In this document: piece after piece, positions 3,265 to 61,502 of the stretch
How the letters are laid out: every line of letters begins with the position of its first letter
How positions within the stretch are numbered: position 1 is the stretch's first letter
DNA from: a virus
Virus record (IMG/VR): IMGVR_UViG_3300006737_000017
Coordinates: 1-64,000 of that record
DNA length: 64,000 bases
Reading direction: 5' to 3' (one strand)
Made by a program: the position numbers and the translations under genes
The notes under the pieces: model-generated
Databases searched by the model: none
What the model was told of the DNA's origin: nothing
The model's input: only the letters and a program-made list of their open reading frames with translations

Positions 3265-4293
3265 ATGAATATTAAAAAGGTTATATCAGAAGCAGAGAGA
3301 AAGCTGCGGGTTCAAACGTATATAAGTAATGGTAAAGCAATAGATTTAGATTTATTGAAACCTGAAGCTTATAAGTTTTTTAATAGATTATACTGGAATA
3401 GACCCGATATATTTGAAATCATTCCACAAGTAAAACATTTGGAATATTACGATAGCTTAAGAGCTTTCTTAGAAACTTTCGATATATCCGATTATGATTC
3501 ACAAGTAGCAAAAACTTACGAAAATCTGATTTTACCTTTATTTGAATCTATACAACAAAATGGTCTTTATACAGAAAATGGAATGGAATATTCCAAGTAT
3601 AACTTATTTACTACAACTGGTAGACCTTCCAATTCTAATAGAGGTATAAATTATGCTGCATTAAATAAAGCAGATGGTTCAAGAGAAAGGTTTACAAGCA
3701 GATTCTCTAATGGTAATTTATTAGAAATGGACTTTGATGCATATCACATTAGACTTATTGCAAGTTTAATAAAATACAATTTACCTGAAACTTCAGTTCA
3801 TGAATATTTTGCAAAACAATTTTATGGAGTACAAACTGTAACTAAGGAAGAATATAAACAATCAAAAGCTATGTCTTTCCAAGTATTATATGGAGGTGTA
3901 CCAAAAGAGTTAAAAGGTATAGAATATTTTGATAAAGTAAAAGCTTACATTTCTAATCTTTGGGATATTTATATTAACAAGGGTTATATTCAAACTCCAG
4001 TATTTAATAGAAGGTTATATAAAAATAATTTAGTAGAGATGAATCCTCAAAAATTATTTAACTATTTAATCCAAGCATATGAAACCGAAAGGAATATAAA
4101 AGTGATGATAGATATTCAATCTTTATTAAAAGATAAATCTTCAAAATTAATTTTATATACATACGATGCTTTTCTATTTGATATAGAAGATTCTGAACTT
4201 TACCTAAAAGATGAAATACAAAAACTAACAGGTTTTCCTGTTAAAATGCATATAGGCAATAACTATAATGATATGAAACTTTTAACTAGATAA
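3265..4293 (+). CDS. Miniature DNA polymerase family A (Pol I-like) catalytic-core protein
   Basis: 342 aa, with Pol I landmarks in the right order: TGRPS at 118-122 (Pol I R668 region), motif A MDFDAYHIR with Asp156, motif B KAMSFQVLYG with Lys201, Phe205, Tyr209 and Gly210, N266-x3-Q270 (Pol I N845/Q849), and motif C YTYDAF with Asp301. Both catalytic aspartates are kept. The steric-gate Glu (E710) is His161, and the motif C His-Asp-Glu is Tyr-Asp-Ala. There is no room for 5' nuclease or proofreading domains, so this is far shorter than Pol I (928 aa) or T7 gp5 (704 aa). The replicase is presumably the family B enzyme at 17294. It begins MNIKKVISEA, which fits the N-terminal tag shared by other proteins here, so it may be packaged. 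Its ATG follows P1 with no leader. Confidence 0.72.
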   Translation: MNIKKVISEAERKLRVQTYISNGKAIDLDLLKPEAYKFFNRLYWNRPDIFEIIPQVKHLEYYDSLRAFLETFDISDYDSQVAKTYENLILPLFESIQQNGLYTENGMEYSKYNLFTTTGRPSNSNRGINYAALNKADGSRERFTSRFSNGNLLEMDFDAYHIRLIASLIKYNLPETSVHEYFAKQFYGVQTVTKEEYKQSKAMSFQVLYGGVPKELKGIEYFDKVKAYISNLWDIYINKGYIQTPVFNRRLYKNNLVEMNPQKLFNYLIQAYETERNIKVMIDIQSLLKDKSSKLILYTYDAFLFDIEDSELYLKDEIQKLTGFPVKMHIGNNYNDMKLLTR

Positions 4294-19765: not shown

Positions 19766-19805
19766 GTAAATAAAAAGTTATAAATCAATAATAATGGAGG
19801 TTAAT

Positions 19806-21567
<1,762 letters not shown>

Positions 21568-43644: not shown

Positions 43645-43794
43645 ATGATAAATTGGATAAACGGTTTTGATGCCGGAAATAAAAAGGAAAAGTACTATCT
43701 AGAATTTAGATTAGGAACTTTTACAGTATTAGAATTAAAATGGGAATCTAAGAAGTTTAGATTTATGATATTTAACTTGGGATTTGAAATATGA
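43645..43794 (+). CDS. Small protein (49 aa) preceding the T9SS cargo gene
   Basis: ATG behind AAGGGAAAA; ends TGA overlapping the next ATG (ATGA). MINWINGFDAGNKKEKYYLE, then FRLGTFTVLELKWESKKFRF. Beta-rich and basic. The tight coupling to the T9SS-type gene supports reality; function unknown. Confidence 0.45.
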   Translation: MINWINGFDAGNKKEKYYLEFRLGTFTVLELKWESKKFRFMIFNLGFEI

Positions 43795-46700
43795 GAAAAT
43801 TTTTATTTTTATTATTAGTATTACCAACGGTTATGTTTGCTCAAACTGACAGTTGGGTTCAATTTGCAGTACAATACGATTATTGGGGAAATCAAGAATC
43901 AGCATTTACTTTTGTATCTGATGCAAATGGTGATACAGTTTTATATCACCAACCAACGCAACCTTGGGAATATTTAGATACAATAGTTAATTGCAATTCA
44001 GGACCATACATAATTACATTAAATGATGATTTTGGTGATGGTTGGGGATCATATCAACAAGGACAGTTAATGTCACCATTTCCAGAATTCAAAATGCAAA
44101 ATGATTGTCAAGGAATGATATTCTATGCTGATTCAACTTCACTATTAGGTTTTTCAGTATTAGATACATTAGTTAATATCAATCCATGTGCACCACCTGT
44201 ATCAGGTTGCTTAGATACAAATGCATTAAATTTCAACCCACTTGCTACCATTGATGACGGATCTTGTACTTATCCACCATGCAGTGGTTTTCTTACGTCT
44301 ACAGCATCACAAACATGTTTACCGAATGGACAAACGCTAGCTCAATTCTTTTGGACTTTAGATGGAAATGTTAGTTGTGAACCAGTATTATTTTGGTATT
44401 CAAATGAAGATGGAGTTGGACCTTTTCAATATGGATTAGGTTATGGAGCAACTGATTTTGCAGTTTATGCTGGTAATGGTCAGATGCCACCTAATTGGTC
44501 AGTAGAACATTATGGATGGGTAGAATTTGCAGATGGTACATTATCAGATACTATTGCAATTACACCAACACCCTGTATAGGCGGATGTACTGATCCTGCT
44601 CAAATATCATATAATCCATGGGCAACATTCGATGATGGATCTTGTTCAGGAACAACTTGTGATACAAATACTCAATATCAAATATCTCTTTCTTTAACTT
44701 TAGATAATTGGCCAGGAGAAACAAGCTGGCAATTCGTTGATGGATTAGGTAATACAGTTGATTATCCAACTGGAACATACGATTTCAATGATATAGGTCA
44801 AACTTACACTTATTCATTCTGTGTAGATCAAAACGCTGCATTTGAATTAATATTAAATGACGACTTCGGTGATGGGATGGCAGGTTCTACATCAGGAGGT
44901 TCTATTGATGGAGCAGCAGTAATATATGATTGTTCTGGTGATACTATTTGGTATATGGATAATCCCGGTTTTGGAAATGTATTATATTCAGGACCTCAAA
45001 CAGCAACACCTTGTCCTACTATTCCAGTAATAGATGGATGCACAGATGATGACTATGTAGAATTTAATCCAGCAGCAAATGTTGATGATGGTTCATGCTT
45101 AACATTACATACTTACGGATGTACTGATTCTAATGCATTTAATTATGACGCATCTGCAACAATGATGGACCTTATTCCAGATTGTAATTATGAATTATGG
45201 ATAGGAGATGCTGGAGGTGATGGTTGGGGTAACTCATTCATTGGTATATATCAAAATGGCATTGATCTTGGAACATATACATTAGGACCGGGAAGTTATC
45301 AAAATACTTGGAATATTATATTAGACCCAGGAGTTCCAGTAGAAGTTAGATACTTTGAAGTTGGTGGACCACAACAACCACCACAAGAAGTACAATTTCA
45401 AACGTGGCACAATTCATTCAAGCTAACTAATGCAGATGGGTTTGTATTATTACATGAAGGACAGAATCCTTTTGCAAATAATGGACAGGGAGCACTTCAA
45501 TCTTTCGAATCTCCTTTCTGGACAAAATACGTAGGTATTCCATTCTGTGGTAACACTTGTATTCCAAAGATATTTGGTTGTACTGATTCAACATCATTTA
45601 ACTATGACCCATTAGCTAATACAGATGATGGAAATTGTATTCCAATTATCTATGGCTGTACAAACGATTTAGCTTTCAATTACGATTCACTAGCTAATAC
45701 AGATGATGGTTCATGTATAGGATATATTTACGGATGTACAGATACAATCGCTGACAATTATAATTCAGTTGCAAATACTGATGATGGCTCATGCTATTAT
45801 ATCGGTTGCACGGATAGCACAGCATTGAACTACGATCCAACAGCTACAGTTAATAATGGATGTGTCTATCCAATATATGGATGCACTGATCCAACAGCAT
45901 TTAATTATGACCCATTAGCTAATGTAAATGATTCAACATGTATACCAGTAATAATTGGATGTATGGATCCTACTATGTACAATTACGATGCAGCAGCTAA
46001 TACACCATCAGGTATTTGTATTCCGTTTATCTATGGTTGTACAGATTCTACAGCATTTAATTATGATCCACTTGCTAATACAGATAACGGTACATGTCAA
46101 GTAGTTGTATATGGATGTACTAACCCAATAGCATTAAATTATGATCCTCAAGCAAATACAGACGACTTATCTTGTATCCTTCCAATTTACGGATGTACTG
46201 ATTCAACCATGTTTAATTACAATCCTCTGGCAAATACTGATAATGGAACTTGTATCCCTTACATATATGGATGTACTAATGCTAATGCATTAAATTACGA
46301 TGCAACAGCAAATACAGATGATGGAACTTGTATATTACCAATATACGGTTGTACAGATTCTACAATGTGGAATTATAACCCTCTAGCAAATGTAGACAAT
46401 GGCAATTGCATTCCATTTATTTATGGTTGTAATGACCCAACAGCATTAAATTATGATCCATTAGCAAATACATCAGATAACAGCTGTTGTTATATATCTG
46501 GATGTACTGATCCAACAGCATTGAACTATGATCCTAACGCTTGTTTTGATGATAATTCTTGTATAGAAATAATAACAGGATGTACTGATGTATCAGCTTA
46601 CAATTACAATCCACTAGCAAATGTTTCAGATTCTACAGCTTGTTTATATGATGCAGGATGTTACGGAGGACCAGGAATACCATATTGGTTAAACGATGGA

Positions 46701-47039
46701 TGTTATGCTTGGGTAATAGATGTAGACGATTATTGCTGCACTACTGATTGGGATGCTTCATGTCAATCAATGTATGATTACTGTCAACAAGGCTGGCCAG
46801 TATCAGTAGAAGAATTATCTGGTTCAGGTACTATTATAGTTTATCCTAACCCTTCTGAAGATATATTTAATATAGATACAAGATTAGACATTGAAGTAGA
46901 GATTTACGATTTATCAGGAAGAACAATCTTAAAATCAAAGGAAAAAAGAATTTCACTAGCAGGATATCCTTCTGGATTATATAATATGGTAATTATACAC
47001 GATGGAAGAAGATTCCAACAGAGATTAGTAAAACAATAA
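43791..47039 (+). CDS. Secreted Cys-rich repeat protein with type IX secretion (T9SS) C-terminal sorting domain
   Basis: 1082 aa. Signal peptide residues 1-17 (MRKFLFLLLVLPTVMFA, cut before Q18). About 18 copies of a ~27-aa repeat (GCTDxxAxNYxPxAN then DDGSC) are interspersed with three D-x-F/G-G-D-G-W/M segments. Residues ~1005-1082 are a type A T9SS sorting domain (IIVYPNPSEDIFNI, EVEIYDLSGR, GLYNMVI, ending RLVKQ). In Bacteroidota this domain sends proteins through the outer membrane to the cell surface. A phage gene of this kind should decorate the infected cell; roles could be blocking superinfection, changing adhesion or acting as a toxin-like factor. Probably captured from a host. Whether it also reaches virions is unknown. 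Confidence 0.88.
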   Translation: MRKFLFLLLVLPTVMFAQTDSWVQFAVQYDYWGNQESAFTFVSDANGDTVLYHQPTQPWEYLDTIVNCNSGPYIITLNDDFGDGWGSYQQGQLMSPFPEFKMQNDCQGMIFYADSTSLLGFSVLDTLVNINPCAPPVSGCLDTNALNFNPLATIDDGSCTYPPCSGFLTSTASQTCLPNGQTLAQFFWTLDGNVSCEPVLFWYSNEDGVGPFQYGLGYGATDFAVYAGNGQMPPNWSVEHYGWVEFADGTLSDTIAITPTPCIGGCTDPAQISYNPWATFDDGSCSGTTCDTNTQYQISLSLTLDNWPGETSWQFVDGLGNTVDYPTGTYDFNDIGQTYTYSFCVDQNAAFELILNDDFGDGMAGSTSGGSIDGAAVIYDCSGDTIWYMDNPGFGNVLYSGPQTATPCPTIPVIDGCTDDDYVEFNPAANVDDGSCLTLHTYGCTDSNAFNYDASATMMDLIPDCNYELWIGDAGGDGWGNSFIGIYQNGIDLGTYTLGPGSYQNTWNIILDPGVPVEVRYFEVGGPQQPPQEVQFQTWHNSFKLTNADGFVLLHEGQNPFANNGQGALQSFESPFWTKYVGIPFCGNTCIPKIFGCTDSTSFNYDPLANTDDGNCIPIIYGCTNDLAFNYDSLANTDDGSCIGYIYGCTDTIADNYNSVANTDDGSCYYIGCTDSTALNYDPTATVNNGCVYPIYGCTDPTAFNYDPLANVNDSTCIPVIIGCMDPTMYNYDAAANTPSGICIPFIYGCTDSTAFNYDPLANTDNGTCQVVVYGCTNPIALNYDPQANTDDLSCILPIYGCTDSTMFNYNPLANTDNGTCIPYIYGCTNANALNYDATANTDDGTCILPIYGCTDSTMWNYNPLANVDNGNCIPFIYGCNDPTALNYDPLANTSDNSCCYISGCTDPTALNYDPNACFDDNSCIEIITGCTDVSAYNYNPLANVSDSTACLYDAGCYGGPGIPYWLNDGCYAWVIDVDDYCCTTDWDASCQSMYDYCQQGWPVSVEELSGSGTIIVYPNPSEDIFNIDTRLDIEVEIYDLSGRTILKSKEKRISLAGYPSGLYNMVIIHDGRRFQQRLVKQ
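45575..46640 (+). repeat. Tandem 27-aa (about 81-nt) coding repeats in the T9SS cargo gene
   Basis: Fourteen consecutive diverged units, each with Gly-Cys-Thr-Asp, Asn-Tyr, Ala-Asn-x-Asp and a second Cys; four more scattered units start at 44204. The paired Cys likely form disulphides outside the cell. DNA identity between units is moderate, so the array is old or shaped by selection, not a recent expansion. Confidence 0.85.
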
Positions 47040-50282: not shown

Positions 50283-50591
50283 ATGAAATTAAAGAAAATA
50301 ATCAAAGAACACGCTTTAGGAGAGTTACCATCTTCTAAATTAAAGAAAATGAAATGGAATCCTGTTACTGATCCAAAACCAGTTAATGAAGAAACTGTTA
50401 ACGAGGGCGGGATGTCAAATATCAAAAGACCAAGAGATTTAAGTAGAATGGAAGGATTACATAATCTAAAGCACATGAAAGAAATGATTAAATATGCTTC
50501 TTTACTATATCAAGATATGGAAGAAGAAGGATTTGATGGCCCAGATATTTACGATTTCTTATTTTATAAAATCAATAAGACTAATCTCTAA
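50283..50591 (+). CDS. Small tagged protein, possible internal capsid protein (102 aa)
   Basis: Starts MKLKKIIKEHALGE, one of the clearest copies of the shared N-terminal tag ending in I-x-E. The remainder is basic then helical (HNLKHMKEMIKYASLLYQDM, EEEGFDGPDIYDFLFYKINK). TAATG overlap with the next gene. Size and tag are like T4 internal proteins IPI-IPIII; packaging is inferred. Confidence 0.5.
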   Translation: MKLKKIIKEHALGELPSSKLKKMKWNPVTDPKPVNEETVNEGGMSNIKRPRDLSRMEGLHNLKHMKEMIKYASLLYQDMEEEGFDGPDIYDFLFYKINKTNL

Positions 50592-52135
50592 TGAAATTTT
50601 CAAAGATCATAGAAAACATATTATCAGAAAAAAACAAGTCTCTTGCTAAAAAGGCAGAAAAAACTGGTATTTCTTATAGTATTCTAAAGAAAGTATACGA
50701 TAGAGGAATGGCAGCATGGAATTCTGGTCACAATCCTGGAACTCCTCAAGCTGCTTGGGCAATGGGAAGAGTAAATTCTTTTATTACTGGTAAAGGTGGA
50801 GCAAGAAAAGCTGATGCTGATTTATGGAAAGGTAGAAAGAAAGAATCTATAGAAGAAATCAGAAAAGGCGATTACGTTGATTCAATGGGAGAAATTGGTT
50901 TAGTTAATAAAGTAAAAGGTCAAGTAGCTTATGTTAAGTTTGATTCTAACCCAAAAAGCTTTCATCCAATGATGGCATCATCATTAAAGAAATCTGGTAA
51001 ACACAAGGGAAAAGATTTATACACAGAAGGCAAATTAACTGAAAGTATGATTGGTATACAAACCAAAGCAAACTTCAAACCTAATACATTGAAAGGCGAA
51101 TTAGAAAGAGCTGGAATCAAGGGTTTTCAGATGAATAGATTATCTGTAACAATGACTGCATTGAAATTGGATAAGAAAGATTTCGAAAAAGCTAAAAAGA
51201 TTATAGATAAAATACCTACAGCTAAAATTCAAATGGCTAAGGAAGGTAAAGTAGATAAAGAATATACAAAAGGTTTATCTAACAAGAAAAAGAAGTACGG
51301 CTCTAAAGATGCAATGGAAAAAGAAATAGAAAAGTACAAAGGAAAAGATAAATACAAAGCAGATTGGGATGCCGACTATAAAAAAGACAAAGACGGCAAG
51401 AAAGTAAAGATTAAAACTAAAAAAGGTGCAGCATCTAAAGCTTATGCAAAGATGTATGGAGAATATTTTGGAATAGGAGACATTCAAGATGTAGTTCCAG
51501 AATGGACAACTTTTGCTAAAGATAATCCCAAGTGGACTCCTGATCAAGGTTTAGGAGATGGAGTTGAATTAGAAGAAGCACCATTTGGTTTTACAGGAGT
51601 ACCATTTCCTCAAGAAACTCCTAATGAATTTGCATACTTAGATTTCAAAAAATACGTTTACAAAAACCAAAAAAGCATAAAAAATAAATTGGGATTAGTT
51701 AGACCCGATAAGATGTTCAAAGCAATAGAATTACTTTGGATCATGTGGGCAAAGAGATTTGCAAAAGAATGGTCAAACGTCAAAGGAAATAAATTTGGTA
51801 GAGAATTAACAAAGATGCTTTGGAAAGATAATTTATTATTTGATAAATCTGGTAACAAGATAACTAAATTACAAGAAGCTTCATCAGTTTGGAAAGTACT
51901 AGATGCAAAATGGAAATTGCAGGATGAGATAATGGACTTAGAAATGGACATGAAAGAAATAACTAAAGACTTATCTCAACTCCATAAAGACATGGAACAA
52001 GAAGCTGAACCAGGTGGAGGTAGAATTGCTGATAGATATGGTCGAGAAATAGAAAAGAAAGAAAAAGAATATAAAAAGAAAAAAGCCGAATTCAAAAGGC
52101 TTATGGCTAAACTCGACAGATTAGAATCATATTAG
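50591..52135 (+). CDS. Large tagged virion-type protein with DUF5824-like segment (514 aa)
   Basis: N-terminus MKFSKIIENILSEKNKS (tag variant ending L-S-E). Residues ~20-75 (GISYSILKKVYDRGMAAWNS, GHNPGTPQAAWAMGRVNSFI) are a module (DUF5824-like) found in T4-like phage structural proteins. A Lys-rich central part (~225-290) is followed by a helical region and a C-terminal coiled coil (~440-514). Several L-x-E sites follow (KLTESM, VELEEA). Possibly a prohead core or internal protein. No catalytic motif. Confidence 0.55.
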   Translation: MKFSKIIENILSEKNKSLAKKAEKTGISYSILKKVYDRGMAAWNSGHNPGTPQAAWAMGRVNSFITGKGGARKADADLWKGRKKESIEEIRKGDYVDSMGEIGLVNKVKGQVAYVKFDSNPKSFHPMMASSLKKSGKHKGKDLYTEGKLTESMIGIQTKANFKPNTLKGELERAGIKGFQMNRLSVTMTALKLDKKDFEKAKKIIDKIPTAKIQMAKEGKVDKEYTKGLSNKKKKYGSKDAMEKEIEKYKGKDKYKADWDADYKKDKDGKKVKIKTKKGAASKAYAKMYGEYFGIGDIQDVVPEWTTFAKDNPKWTPDQGLGDGVELEEAPFGFTGVPFPQETPNEFAYLDFKKYVYKNQKSIKNKLGLVRPDKMFKAIELLWIMWAKRFAKEWSNVKGNKFGRELTKMLWKDNLLFDKSGNKITKLQEASSVWKVLDAKWKLQDEIMDLEMDMKEITKDLSQLHKDMEQEAEPGGGRIADRYGREIEKKEKEYKKKKAEFKRLMAKLDRLESY

Positions 52136-52144
52136 GAGACAATC

Positions 52145-52882
52145 TTGATACGCTACACGATGGTAAACGGTACTCAGACTATACAAGAAGTATGCGAATG
52201 TTGTGGCGAAATAACATCTGATCTACATATTTCAGAAATAACTGTAAAGGCTCCAGATGATCCAAGAGATATTATCATCAAAGACAAAGATAATAATAAT
52301 CTAACATTAAAAACCAAAGAAAGATTCATAGCAGATAGGACGGCTTCTTTTATTAAAGAAGGTTTAATGGATGAAGATGATGCAGTTGAATTTAGAACCA
52401 AAAAGGAATTGAAATATGGTATGAGACCAGATGCAATGTGCAGTATGTCTATAGATATAGTAAATGGAGTAACTCAATCTTTCTGCTACAAAACAGACAA
52501 TAACGAATTCCTTAAAAAATATAGTTCAAGCTTTCATGCATCAACAGAAAAAGAATCAACTGAGTTAGGCGTAAAAGTTGGTGTAGATAGAAAAGGAAAC
52601 ATCATCAGAATGAAATCTGAAAAACGTGTAGACTTAGTTACTAGAAGAGTTAAATTAAAAGCTAATGGAGATGAAGAGGAAGTAAAATATAAAGGACAAT
52701 TCGAAACTCCTTGGTTCAGAGAGTTAGAAGATAGAACTAGAACTTTATATCACAAGACAATGCTTGATTGTAAAACTGCTATAAAAGAATTTGGTGAAAA
52801 AGAAGTAGAATCAGGTAAAGCAATGGCAAGATTCAAAACAGTAGATGAATTCAAAAAATATATAGACAAGAATTGCAGATAA
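52145..52882 (+). CDS. Protein of unknown function with Cys motif; TTG start
   Basis: 245 aa. AGGAG at 52134-52138 is well placed for TTG at 52145, while the first ATG (52160) is too far, so TTG is the likely start. EVCECCGEITSDLHIS has C-x-C-C near residues 17-20 and CSMSIDIVNGVTQSFC adds two Cys, a possible metal site. The centre is beta-rich; the C-terminus is helical. TAATG junction with the Ntn-hydrolase gene. Confidence 0.55.
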   Translation: MIRYTMVNGTQTIQEVCECCGEITSDLHISEITVKAPDDPRDIIIKDKDNNNLTLKTKERFIADRTASFIKEGLMDEDDAVEFRTKKELKYGMRPDAMCSMSIDIVNGVTQSFCYKTDNNEFLKKYSSSFHASTEKESTELGVKVGVDRKGNIIRMKSEKRVDLVTRRVKLKANGDEEEVKYKGQFETPWFRELEDRTRTLYHKTMLDCKTAIKEFGEKEVESGKAMARFKTVDEFKKYIDKNCR

Positions 52883-54201
52883 TGAAATTTAAGAAAATCA
52901 TATCAAACTTACAAGAAGAGTATAAATTACCAATTTCTGTTGGTGATACTATCATGATGGGTAGATTCAAAAATAAACCTGTAAAGGTAAAATCTATTTC
53001 TATGAGTGACAAAGGTGATTTATTAATAAATGGTAAATCAGCTGCAAGATTTAGAATTAAAAAATTAGATGAAACTGGAAAAGGTATTTGGCATAACATC
53101 AGAGCTAAAAGAAAAAGAGGAGAAGCTCCCGCAAAGAAGGGGTCATCGGCATATAAAAAAGCTGCAAAGGCAATGAAATCTTTAGAAGAGAAAGCACCAC
53201 CAGGAATGGAAGATGTAGTTTTAGCTCTAAAGAAAAAGAAAGATATTGATAATCCTTATGCAATTGCTTGGTCAATGTATAATAAGAAGAAAAAGAAAGA
53301 GAGCCTTGATGAATGTGTAATTGCACACAAGGTAATAGATGGGAACGTAATACTTGCGAAAAACCGAGATAGAGCTTACGACGTAAAATTAACAGTTGTT
53401 AGAGAATTAATTAATAATATTGAAGTTGTTTATATACACGATGACGATACAGATTGGTCTGAAGGTATGAATGAGTTTGGAATAGGAATTATTAATTCAA
53501 CACTCCAAGGTGAATACGATGAAAAAGAAAAAAAGATTGTAAAGAAAAGTGGAAAACCTTCTAAGGATGGTTTCAAAATGAGAACCGCTTTAGGTTACAA
53601 GAAACTTTCTCGGGTAATAAAATCTATTATAGAATTTACAGGATTCTCCACAGGTGATAATGCTAAATCAGGAGAAGCAACAGGATTGAATGGTCATACA
53701 TTCGTAGCTAACCAGAATAATTCATACGCAATAGAAACTACTTCAATCAATCCTCCAGCTATTAGAAAACTTAGTCATGATAAAGCTCATACTAGAACTA
53801 ATCACGGTAGAGTTTATAAAGACGCAGGATATCAAGATGGTAAAAATGCTAAATCTTCTAAACTTAGACAAAATATATCTTTATCAATAGTATCAAAAGC
53901 AAAAACAAAATATGATATATTAAAAGGTTTACAAGGATATTATGCAAAAGATTATAGAGATAATCCTTATAGAAATAAAGACAAAGTTAACAATCCAACC
54001 GGAGCTGATGTACTTTCTACTACAGGACAATTAATGCTAGATCTAACTGACAAAATATTAACTGTTACAATGGATAAAACTAAGTCAGAATTTTTAGGAA
54101 TAGACGATAGAACGCCTGAATCTTATAAACCAAAAATAAAAGTTAATGTACAATATACAATTCCATTCGAATCAGATGGTGGAGATAGCGATGAGTCATA
54201 A
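52882..54201 (+). CDS. Tagged Ntn hydrolase (C45/linear amide hydrolase-like) with L-D-E before the catalytic Cys
   Basis: Start at ATG 52882 (TAATG); an in-frame TTG at 52873 is less likely. 439 aa. N-terminal tag MKFKKIISNLQE; residues ~65-135 contain GKGIWHNIRAKRKRGEAPAK and GMEDVVLALKKKKDIDNPYA then IAWSMYN, modules known in myophage virion proteins. From Cys145: CVIAHKVIDGNVILAKNRDR, GMNEFGIGIINSTL, NNSYAIETTSINPPA and AHTRTNHG, the N-terminal-nucleophile pattern of C45 acyltransferase/penicillin-acylase-type enzymes. SLDE directly precedes Cys145, matching the (L/I)-x-E consensus of T4 prohead protease, so capsid maturation could expose the nucleophile. Amide substrate unknown. Confidence 0.68.
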   Translation: MKFKKIISNLQEEYKLPISVGDTIMMGRFKNKPVKVKSISMSDKGDLLINGKSAARFRIKKLDETGKGIWHNIRAKRKRGEAPAKKGSSAYKKAAKAMKSLEEKAPPGMEDVVLALKKKKDIDNPYAIAWSMYNKKKKKESLDECVIAHKVIDGNVILAKNRDRAYDVKLTVVRELINNIEVVYIHDDDTDWSEGMNEFGIGIINSTLQGEYDEKEKKIVKKSGKPSKDGFKMRTALGYKKLSRVIKSIIEFTGFSTGDNAKSGEATGLNGHTFVANQNNSYAIETTSINPPAIRKLSHDKAHTRTNHGRVYKDAGYQDGKNAKSSKLRQNISLSIVSKAKTKYDILKGLQGYYAKDYRDNPYRNKDKVNNPTGADVLSTTGQLMLDLTDKILTVTMDKTKSEFLGIDDRTPESYKPKIKVNVQYTIPFESDGGDSDES

Positions 54202-55008: not shown

Positions 55009-55536
55009 ATGATTAAACTAAAAGATATATTAAATGAAGCAAGAAGCTTAAGTGTATTTGATTTCGATGATACCCTTGCTTTCACAGATTCTTGGGTTTA
55101 TGTAAAAAAGAACGGCGGTGAATACAAATTAGATTCAGCTGAATTCGCAGTTCACAAATTAAAACCTGGTGAAAGTTATGATTTCAGAGATTTTGATAGA
55201 ATGTTAAGAAAACCTCAGATCATAAAGAAAAATGTAGAAATACTTAAAAAACAATTGAAAAAAGTTGGTAGAAGAGTTACAATTTTAACAGCAAGAGCAG
55301 TTGGTTTTCCTGTAAAACATTTTTTCAAAACTTTAGGAATAGACGTTTATGTTGTAGCAGTCGGTTCTGCAGATCCCAAAGTTAAATCTGATTGGATAGA
55401 AGATCATATAAAGAAAGGTTATAACCCTGTATATTTCATAGACGATTCTAGTAAAAATATAGCAGCTGTTGATAAGCTAAAAAGAAAATATCCAAAGACT
55501 AAGATTAAAACGTATTTATTCAAAGGTCACAAATGA
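55009..55536 (+). CDS. Tagged HAD-superfamily phosphatase
   Basis: Start at ATG 55009, not the in-frame TTG at 55000. 175 aa. Tag MIKLKDILNE is followed at once by the HAD core: SLSVFDFDDTLAF (Asp18, Asp20), TILTAR (motif II Thr), DPKVKSDWIEDHI (motif III Lys) and NPVYFIDDSSKNI (motif IV Asp pair). It may act as a 5'-nucleotidase or a PNK-type 3' phosphatase. The tag directly abutting the domain suggests it is removable. ATGA overlap with the next gene. Confidence 0.8.
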   Translation: MIKLKDILNEARSLSVFDFDDTLAFTDSWVYVKKNGGEYKLDSAEFAVHKLKPGESYDFRDFDRMLRKPQIIKKNVEILKKQLKKVGRRVTILTARAVGFPVKHFFKTLGIDVYVVAVGSADPKVKSDWIEDHIKKGYNPVYFIDDSSKNIAAVDKLKRKYPKTKIKTYLFKGHK

Positions 55537-55958
55537 TTAAGCTAAAAAGTATATTAACAGAAGTTTCTAAAAAAGACATAATGGATATAGTTAAAAAAGT
55601 TTATCCATACATCGCTAAAGATTTAGGTGGAAGGGCTGTTAAAGTAGAAGTTCATAATAATATATACAAAAGAATTGGTGCTGTTGGCATTGAAGATATG
55701 ATGAAAGATAATAATCCTTTTGCAGAATACGATTGGGATAGAAATAGAATTTATTTATATGCATCAGCCATATCTAATGTTGAACAGGTAATAAGATCAT
55801 TGTTACATGAACATACTCACACAAAACAAGATAGAAAAAAATTCAAAGCTGGTTATGAATCTGGAAAATATAATTATTCAACACACCCATATGAAAAAGC
55901 AGCAGTTAATTCAGAAAAAAAATGGAAGAAGTATCTAAAATATTTGGATAAGTCATAA
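55533..55958 (+). CDS. Tagged HExxH zinc metallopeptidase-like protein
   Basis: 141 aa. Tag MIKLKSILTE, then a zincin core with RSLLHEHTHTKQDRKKF (His92-Glu93-x2-His96) and a downstream HPYEKAAVNSEKKW whose Glu could be the third zinc ligand. Probable small protease or zinc-dependent hydrolase. Its last codons (YLDKS-stop) are the TTTGGATAAGTCATAA of P11. Confidence 0.68.
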   Translation: MIKLKSILTEVSKKDIMDIVKKVYPYIAKDLGGRAVKVEVHNNIYKRIGAVGIEDMMKDNNPFAEYDWDRNRIYLYASAISNVEQVIRSLLHEHTHTKQDRKKFKAGYESGKYNYSTHPYEKAAVNSEKKWKKYLKYLDKS

Positions 55959-55978: not shown

Positions 55979-56491
55979 ATGTTAAAATTATCAGACGTAC
56001 TTATGGAAGCTTTACCTGGAGAAAAATCAGCTGGAGCTATTATCTTTAGAAGAGATTCCAAGGGCATACAATATTTACTGCTATTTGGTGATAAAATTGG
56101 ATGGGGATTCCCAAAGGGCCATATAGATAGTGGAGAAGAACCTAAGGAGACTGCTATTAGAGAGATAGAAGAAGAGACTGGTATTATCATAGACGAGTTT
56201 ATTCCGAATTTCGAAGCTTATACTCAATATGATATGAAGCTAGATTATTCTAAAACTCCTCCTGAACCGCTTGAAAAACCCTACATAAAGACTTGTGTAT
56301 ATTATTTAGCTGAAGTCCCCAAAGGACAGAAGGTTAAAATATCGCATGAACACGAAAAATATATTTGGGCAACTTATTCAGCAGCTCAAGAAAAAATAGA
56401 ATTTAATAAAGATATACTTAAAAAAGCAGACAGGATAATTTCAAATGGCACCAGAAGTAAAAGCATACATAAAAGGAAGAGAAATAATTAG
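55979..56491 (+). CDS. Tagged Nudix hydrolase
   Basis: 170 aa. Tag MLKLSDVLMEA, then SAGAIIFRRDSKGIQYLLL and a perfect Nudix box from Gly47 (GHIDSGEEPKETAIREIEEE then TGI; G-x5-E-x7-R-E-U-x-E-E-x-G-U). YDMKLDYSKTPPEPLEKPYI and a Y/F-rich tail resemble diadenosine-polyphosphate/RNA pyrophosphatase Nudix enzymes. Could hydrolyse NDP-sugars, Ap4A or mRNA caps. Leaderless behind P11. Confidence 0.9.
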   Translation: MLKLSDVLMEALPGEKSAGAIIFRRDSKGIQYLLLFGDKIGWGFPKGHIDSGEEPKETAIREIEEETGIIIDEFIPNFEAYTQYDMKLDYSKTPPEPLEKPYIKTCVYYLAEVPKGQKVKISHEHEKYIWATYSAAQEKIEFNKDILKKADRIISNGTRSKSIHKRKRNN

Positions 56492-61085: not shown

Positions 61086-61502
61086 ATGACAAGATTACAT
61101 TTTCACGAGCGGTTGTTTCCAACCGACCTTCTGTTCAAAAATTTCTTTGAAACAGATTCAAATTTTCAATCTCACGTAGACAACAAACCTAACTATCCTT
61201 GTGATTTATTCACAACTGATGAAGGCTTGGGTATTGAGATTGCAGCTGTTGGTTTAGATAAAAAAGATATCAAAATCGAAACAGCAGAAAATCAAATTAA
61301 AATTAGTTACGAAAGGACTGACGATGAACAATCAGTTGATTATATTCATAGAGGCATTGCTAGAAGATCTTTTAACTTAGGGTGGAAGATTTCTCCAAAG
61401 TTCAACTTAAATAGAGTTGATGCCAAAATGGATAAAGGGTTACTTACAATCTTCATTCCAATTGCTGATGAAGCTAAACCAAAAGCAATTACAATAGGAT
61501 AA
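61086..61502 (+). CDS. hsp20: Small heat-shock protein Hsp20 (alpha-crystallin domain)
   Basis: 138 aa. PCDLFTTDEGLGIEIAAVGL, DKKDIKIETAENQIKISYER, YIHRGIARRSFNLGWKISPK (R-x-F-x-L-x-W/L) and DAKMDKGLLTIFIPI (G-L-L-x-I-x-I-P) are the alpha-crystallin landmarks. ATP-independent holdase; phage Hsp20s are common in T4-like cyanophages. Together with GroESL the phage carries its own folding set. Ribosome site TTAGGAG. Confidence 0.92.
   Translation: MTRLHFHERLFPTDLLFKNFFETDSNFQSHVDNKPNYPCDLFTTDEGLGIEIAAVGLDKKDIKIETAENQIKISYERTDDEQSVDYIHRGIARRSFNLGWKISPKFNLNRVDAKMDKGLLTIFIPIADEAKPKAITIG

Follow-up and report, generated by a model that had tools for sequence, protein, structure and literature searches.

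A gene in the window, the whole 64,000-nucleotide stretch of DNA analysed here, was found to encode a precursor of a C45/AAT-like Ntn cysteine hydrolase that is probably packaged, cut by the phage's prohead protease and activated by the cut after Glu144. As we infer the sequence of events, the precursor would enter the prohead core, probably through an N-terminus resembling a T4 capsid-targeting sequence (CTS), and the phage's own S77 (gp21-type) prohead protease would cleave the precursor behind its (L/I)xE motifs. Cleavage at Glu144 would free Cys145 as the N-terminal nucleophile and thereby form the active site. The active hydrolase would then stay in the mature head and probably be ejected along with the DNA into the next host, like T4 Alt and the internal proteins. 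Thus, the enzyme would probably be made inactive and switched on only during head maturation. This zymogen reading is supported by the predicted Ntn fold, the conserved (L/I)xE↓C (arrows mark cleavage positions), the S77 protease, the capsid site, the head-gene context and the CTS-like starts. Because an Ntn enzyme needs its nucleophile at the N-terminus, a cut at this position would affect catalysis directly, whatever its first purpose.

The reading frame lies on a 138,299-base virus contig (G000) and opens with an ATG at 52882 (Table 1). The preliminary description had assumed a virion-type N-terminal part ahead of the enzyme. The short CTS-like start agrees with this, but the N-terminal part is not one piece, since small modules follow and (L/I)xE occurs after residues 12, 64, 103 and 144; the hydrolase domain (295 residues) has just one such motif. 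The beta module of residues 13-64 also occurs as a free-standing protein in other phages. The linker ahead of Glu144 is predicted to be flexible, with pLDDT below 50 at residues 136-141. An Rfam search of the precursor region gave no match. Elsewhere in the window, positions 43791-47039 encode a predicted secreted protein of 1082 aa in which GCTDxxAxNYDPxANxDDGSC is repeated many times. These repeats and an apparent type IX secretion C-terminal sorting domain indicate a Bacteroidota host. GroES-like, GroEL-like and small heat-shock-like proteins were recognised by eye at 19794-21567 and 61086-61502.

Table 1. Features of the precursor gene and its neighbours, in window coordinates
Feature	Position	Strand	Basis or remarks
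CDS	52882..54198	+	439-aa precursor: CTS-like start, small modules, Ntn hydrolase domain
Residues 1-12, MKFKKIISNLQE	52882..52917	+	T4 CTS-like, LxE at end
Residues 13-64, small beta module (LPISVGDTIMMGRFKNK...)	52918..53073	+	KLDE at end
Residues 65-103, basic module (TGKGIWHNIRAKRKRGE...)	53074..53190	+	SLEE at end; PHROG matches at about residues 59-107
Residues 104-144, helical module (KAPPGMEDVVLALKKKK...) and low-confidence linker	53191..53313	+	SLDE at end
Proposed prohead-protease site and nucleophile, S-L-D-E↓C145	53302..53316	+	Sequence; conservation among homologues
C45/AAT-like Ntn cysteine hydrolase domain (residues 145-439)	53314..54198	+	Profiles, predicted fold
K-N-R-D-R motif (160-164)	53359..53373	+	Invariant in alignment
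GMNEFGIG motif (195-202)	53464..53487	+	Alignment
RTNH motif (305-308)	53794..53805	+	Invariant in alignment
Putative cargo gene, neighbour	50283..50591	+	CTS-like start MKLKKIIKE↓H
DUF5824 gene, neighbour	50591..52135	+	Start MKFSKIIENILSE↓K
HAD/PNKP-like gene	55009..55536	+	CTS-like start MIKLKDILNE↓A
Gene with HEHTH motif (possible metallopeptidase)	55533..55958	+	CTS-like start MIKLKSILTE↓V
NUDIX gene	55979..56491	+	CTS-like start MLKLSDVLME↓A

The codons AGC CTT GAT GAA TGT give S141-L142-D143-E144-C145, confirming the S-L-D-E that had been described ahead of Cys145. T4 gp21 cuts after L/I-X-E (PMC9026906), and the proposed match to this T4-type consensus was borne out by the relatives. 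The 158 distinct members divide into (L/I)xE↓C (136), (V/M)xE↓C (16) and M↓C (6), with no other form among them. Therefore, 152/158 homologues carry (L/I/V/M)xE immediately before Cys, and the other 6 carry the initiator Met alone. This is not due to chance, because [LIVM]xE is found at 1.3% of mature-domain positions and before 0/64 internal cysteines. An artefact of the search was ruled out as well, since the queries used to collect homologues began at Cys and the leader was thus not selected for. Duplicates were removed, and the nucleophile Cys was located by motif; the 4 fetched loci without the Cys motif all lack the beginning of the domain, which is cut off by a contig edge. A search for a known gp21 site with Cys at P1' found none.

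The leaders extend from 4 to several hundred residues upstream of Cys, with the polyproteins having the longest. The shortest are M-I-N-E, M-L-N-E and M-I-K-E; 7-residue leaders include MKKIINE and MAKLLNE, 13-residue leaders include MIKLRNLLHELNE, and forms of 20-27 residues carry two sites. The carriers are large T4-like phages, those in culture being Chryseobacterium phages MA9V-1 and MA9V-2, and the MA9V-1 homologue has a 12-residue leader (MTSANNNEFLNE↓CVIAAK). Changes at each leader position were counted by parsimony on a tree built with FastTree from the mature domain. The -1 Glu had 0 changes among the E-bearing members, and the -3 position had 39 changes that were confined to L/I/V/M. 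Positions -2 and -4 to -8 had 47-68 changes and 13-19 residue types. Switches between E and M at -1 were placed at about 3 events. As far as sequence can indicate, the conservation at -3 and -1 is the P3/P1 pattern of T4 gp21. The M↓C members without a leader (L024, L110, L111, L120, L124 and L153) appear to be natural protease-independent forms, and these six would not need the prohead protease.

The NRDR, GMNEFGIG and RTNH motifs, earlier taken as signs of an Ntn enzyme, were found downstream of Cys145 at residues 161-164, 195-202 and 305-308. In the alignment of the relatives, numbered from the nucleophile, Cys1, KNRDR, E50-G51-M52-N53 and R161-T162-N163-H164-G165 are invariant, and Cys1 is directly preceded by the cleavage motif or Met. 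AlphaFold2 predicted an alpha-beta-beta-alpha Ntn fold for residues 145-439 (mean pLDDT 87.2, pTM 0.88, with an alignment of 26 relatives), and the assignment stands on this model. When the model was compared with the PDB by Foldseek, acyl-CoA:isopenicillin N acyltransferase (IAT) came first, as both mature enzyme and precursor (E 2.8e-8), followed by CV2077 (no function name), bile salt hydrolases and penicillin V acylases. The matches listed at E<0.001 were Ntn acyltransferases, bile salt hydrolases, penicillin V acylases, C69 dipeptidase and CV2077.

Profile searches matched NCBIfam C45_proenzyme (NF040521) in 22/27 relatives (best 1.8e-12) and Pfam AAT (PF03417) in 16/27 (best 3.7e-7). In five members checked, the NF040521 scores were 28.9-45.6 bits, which is below the curated cut-off of 85, and the matches in the members checked began at profile positions 99-133 of 313. 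Since the family is C45/AAT-like, the substrate would be of the amide or acyl-transfer class. Pfam and PDB searches with the window protein alone gave nothing useful and no Pfam family; profile matches to isocitrate dehydrogenase and flavodoxin were discarded as chance. The penicillin-amidase Pfam is absent from G000. A scan of viral contigs returned no relatives when the window sequence was the sole query; aligning it with the homologues from the Chryseobacterium phages gave a query that recovered them. Searches for relatives in cells or on plasmids were negative; the relatives here are from phages only.

A T4-type (S77) prohead protease, PF03420, is encoded in the same genome at 119675-120121 of G000 (E 2.7e-30), with a PHROG head maturation protease match of 3.7e-56; the whole protease spans 119585-120229. 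PF03420 was found in 21/26 carrier records of at least 100 kb, and the remaining records may be fragments. Two carriers of M↓C members (the L147 and L149 contigs), which are phages of at least 168 kb, still encode S77. The major capsid protein of G000 contains QLISE↓A; in the alignment, this falls on FLTE↓A, where T4 gp23 is known to be cut between Glu65 and Ala66. By alignment, the conserved N-terminal region of the major capsid protein holds a predicted cleavage site in 12 carriers, including G000: LISE↓A (G000), LIDE↓A, LLDE↓A, LIDE↓T, LVSE↓A, LLKE↓G, LLNE↓S and LINE↓A. Valine thus stands at P3 in capsid sites also (LVSE↓A), so a P3 range of L, I and V is common to the capsid sites and the hydrolase leaders. 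In MA9V-1 (L294), the prohead protease domain lies within an ORF of about 1,350 aa at about 126.5-130.5 kb.

CTS-like starts, defined as hydrophobic, two residues, hydrophobic, L/I, any residue and E, were counted in 9 G000 genes compared to 0.5 expected (P 2e-9, which is optimistic because the pattern was written after these genes were seen). A plainer count of (L/I)xE ending at residues 7-16 gave 37/157 G000 genes compared to 19 +/- 3.8. The starts read from the T4 record were MKTYQEFIAE↓A for IPII/IPIII, MAKINELLRE↓S for gp24 and MLKEQLIAE↓A for gp22. The start of the HAD/PNKP-like protein is in register with that of T4 IPIII, with hydrophobic residues at 4 and 7, L/I at 8 and E at 10, and the hydrolase start resembles the IPIII CTS but is two residues longer. 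Many of the relatives' leaders fit the CTS form (MIKL..LLxE), but the shortest do not. A full CTS cannot fit into MINE, MLNE or MIKE, and the members with these leaders would have to be packaged in some other way. Gene order also points to the head: the hydrolase gene sits between gp21 and gp22/gp23 in L083, and it is directly upstream of one common late gene in about 35 carriers. Together, the head-gene neighbourhood and the CTS-like starts support packaging of the predicted precursor. A search for a virion proteome found none; the publication on MA9V-1 offers SDS-PAGE only. A 342-aa gene at window positions 3265-4293 with a family-A DNA polymerase match (Pfam 5e-12) has the CTS-like start MNIKKVISE↓A and is possibly packaged. 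A candidate cargo island was seen at 6763-13971 of L018, a 257-kb phage, where neighbouring genes stand in a row, many with MNLQESIRRILRE-like starts.

Other modules begin at the same kind of site. In polyproteins, a kinase module (Zeta_toxin/AAA Pfam) starts after IITE↓GVYDPG, ILKE↓GLYDPG, LLNE↓GVNDPG or VVVE↓GVNDPG, and a ligase-like module starts after IITE↓GGAYGH, LLLE↓GGAYGH, LITE↓GGAYGH or LLNE↓GGAYGH. The exception is the L235-L250 clade, which has LLLM↓GGAYGH ahead of the ligase-like module where most other phages have LLxE↓GG. [LIV]xE before these two modules is not explicable by a hydrolase that cuts itself. In L067 (3087-6419), L232, L239, L256 and others, large polyproteins were seen in which nucleotidyltransferase, kinase, Ntn and ligase-like modules are shuffled, several of them separated by (L/I/V)xE. 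A separate Zeta-toxin/AAA-type kinase (L004; G000:C1:111579-112283) has the CTS-like start MIKLKDIITE↓G and homologues in Pelagibacter phage HTVC008M and Methylophilales phage Melnitz.

The main rival to activation by the prohead protease is autocatalysis, by which the hydrolase would cut itself before Cys145, so that Glu at -1 and the aliphatic residue at -3 would reflect its own processing need and the match to the consensus would be coincidental. Some Ntn amidotransferases have short propeptides that end in Glu, and self-cleavage would likewise conserve residues near the nucleophile. Also, the phage family is C45-like, C45 enzymes self-process, and the existence of the M↓C form means that the leader is dispensable. 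However, IAT processes itself at Gly102↓Cys103 (PMC7183595), with Gly rather than Glu at the junction, and has an alpha chain of about 100 residues compared to phage leaders of as few as 4. (L/I)xE also stands before the kinase and ligase-like modules and at the capsid site, where no Ntn hydrolase could be cutting itself. A free -2 position next to a -3 limited to L/I/V/M is what the specificity of the phage protease would lead one to expect. Autocatalysis is, in our view, unlikely.

It could also be that the (L/I)xE merely removes a targeting leader from a packaged and cut protein, with the link to catalysis incidental and the enzyme working after release in the host or never in the virion. 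Cargo modules without an N-terminal nucleophile begin exactly after (L/I)xE as well, so the exact spacing is not unique to the Ntn domain. This explanation seems highly improbable, given that freeing an Ntn nucleophile has a direct catalytic effect and that the Cys1, KNRDR, GMN and RTNH residues are invariant, which indicates that catalysis is under selection. The last alternative is that the Cys N-terminus arises in the cytoplasm, through a host protease, another phage protease or methionine aminopeptidase acting from an internal start, in which case the protein would be an ordinary non-virion enzyme. The six distinct M↓C members speak for this, as do the two of their carriers that are at least 168 kb long and encode S77. 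Yet methionine aminopeptidase could not take off the leader that 152/158 retain, the window has no ATG directly before Cys145, and the gene adjoins head or late genes in many carriers. The chance of cytoplasmic processing is accordingly put at close to nil.

If the prohead protease does activate the hydrolase, then the protease of capsid maturation would be an enzyme switch, beyond its role in shell remodelling, with the timing built into N-terminal-nucleophile chemistry. With somewhat less assurance, we favour the broader view that virion zymogens are a widespread class, in which T4-like capsid maturation would split (L/I)xE-punctuated cargo polyproteins into enzymes. The Ntn cut would build the active site, and catalysis would take place only in heads, during or after their maturation, and in the next host. 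(L/I)xE followed by the start of a module could be a simple rule for predicting packaged or injected proteins of large phages, many of which are unannotated. The E↓C (protease-dependent) and M↓C (protease-independent) members offer a natural comparison inside one family.

A literature search for 'prohead protease' and 'Ntn hydrolase' together found no report, although subscription journals were mostly outside its scope and an earlier report is possible. The combination suggested here is that of protease-processed T4-type cargo with a C45-like Ntn hydrolase, and each part has known counterparts. Like peptidase family C45 and IAT (NF040521, PF03417), the phage enzymes have the Ntn fold, a Cys nucleophile and, in most members, profile similarity. 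In contrast to that family, the members checked fall below the NCBIfam cut-off, the junction is (L/I)xE↓C rather than Gly↓Cys, the relatives found here are phage-only, and the N-terminal chain of about 100 residues is lacking (about 90 profile positions before Cys are unmatched). Polyvalent proteins of phages and plasmids are likewise single chains, packaged or injected, from which proteolysis frees several unrelated enzyme domains (Iyer et al. 2017, PMC5512222). For these proteins, embedded peptidase domains are proposed as the releasers, whereas the junctions here match a separate prohead protease. The prohead-protease substrates of SPN3US (and phiKZ) are similar in that packaged ejection proteins are cut after short Glu-ending motifs; SPN3US uses A-x-E, and a cut-activated enzyme is absent from the portions of its description drawn on here (PMC10052503). 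There is also a likeness in form to the T4 internal proteins and Alt, which have a short N-terminal leader ending in (L/I)xE and the same protease type in the genome, and Alt is an enzyme too, with a 7-residue propeptide (PMC9026906). In these T4 proteins the cut is known to remove a targeting leader, whereas in the phage hydrolase the cut would itself create the catalytic residue.
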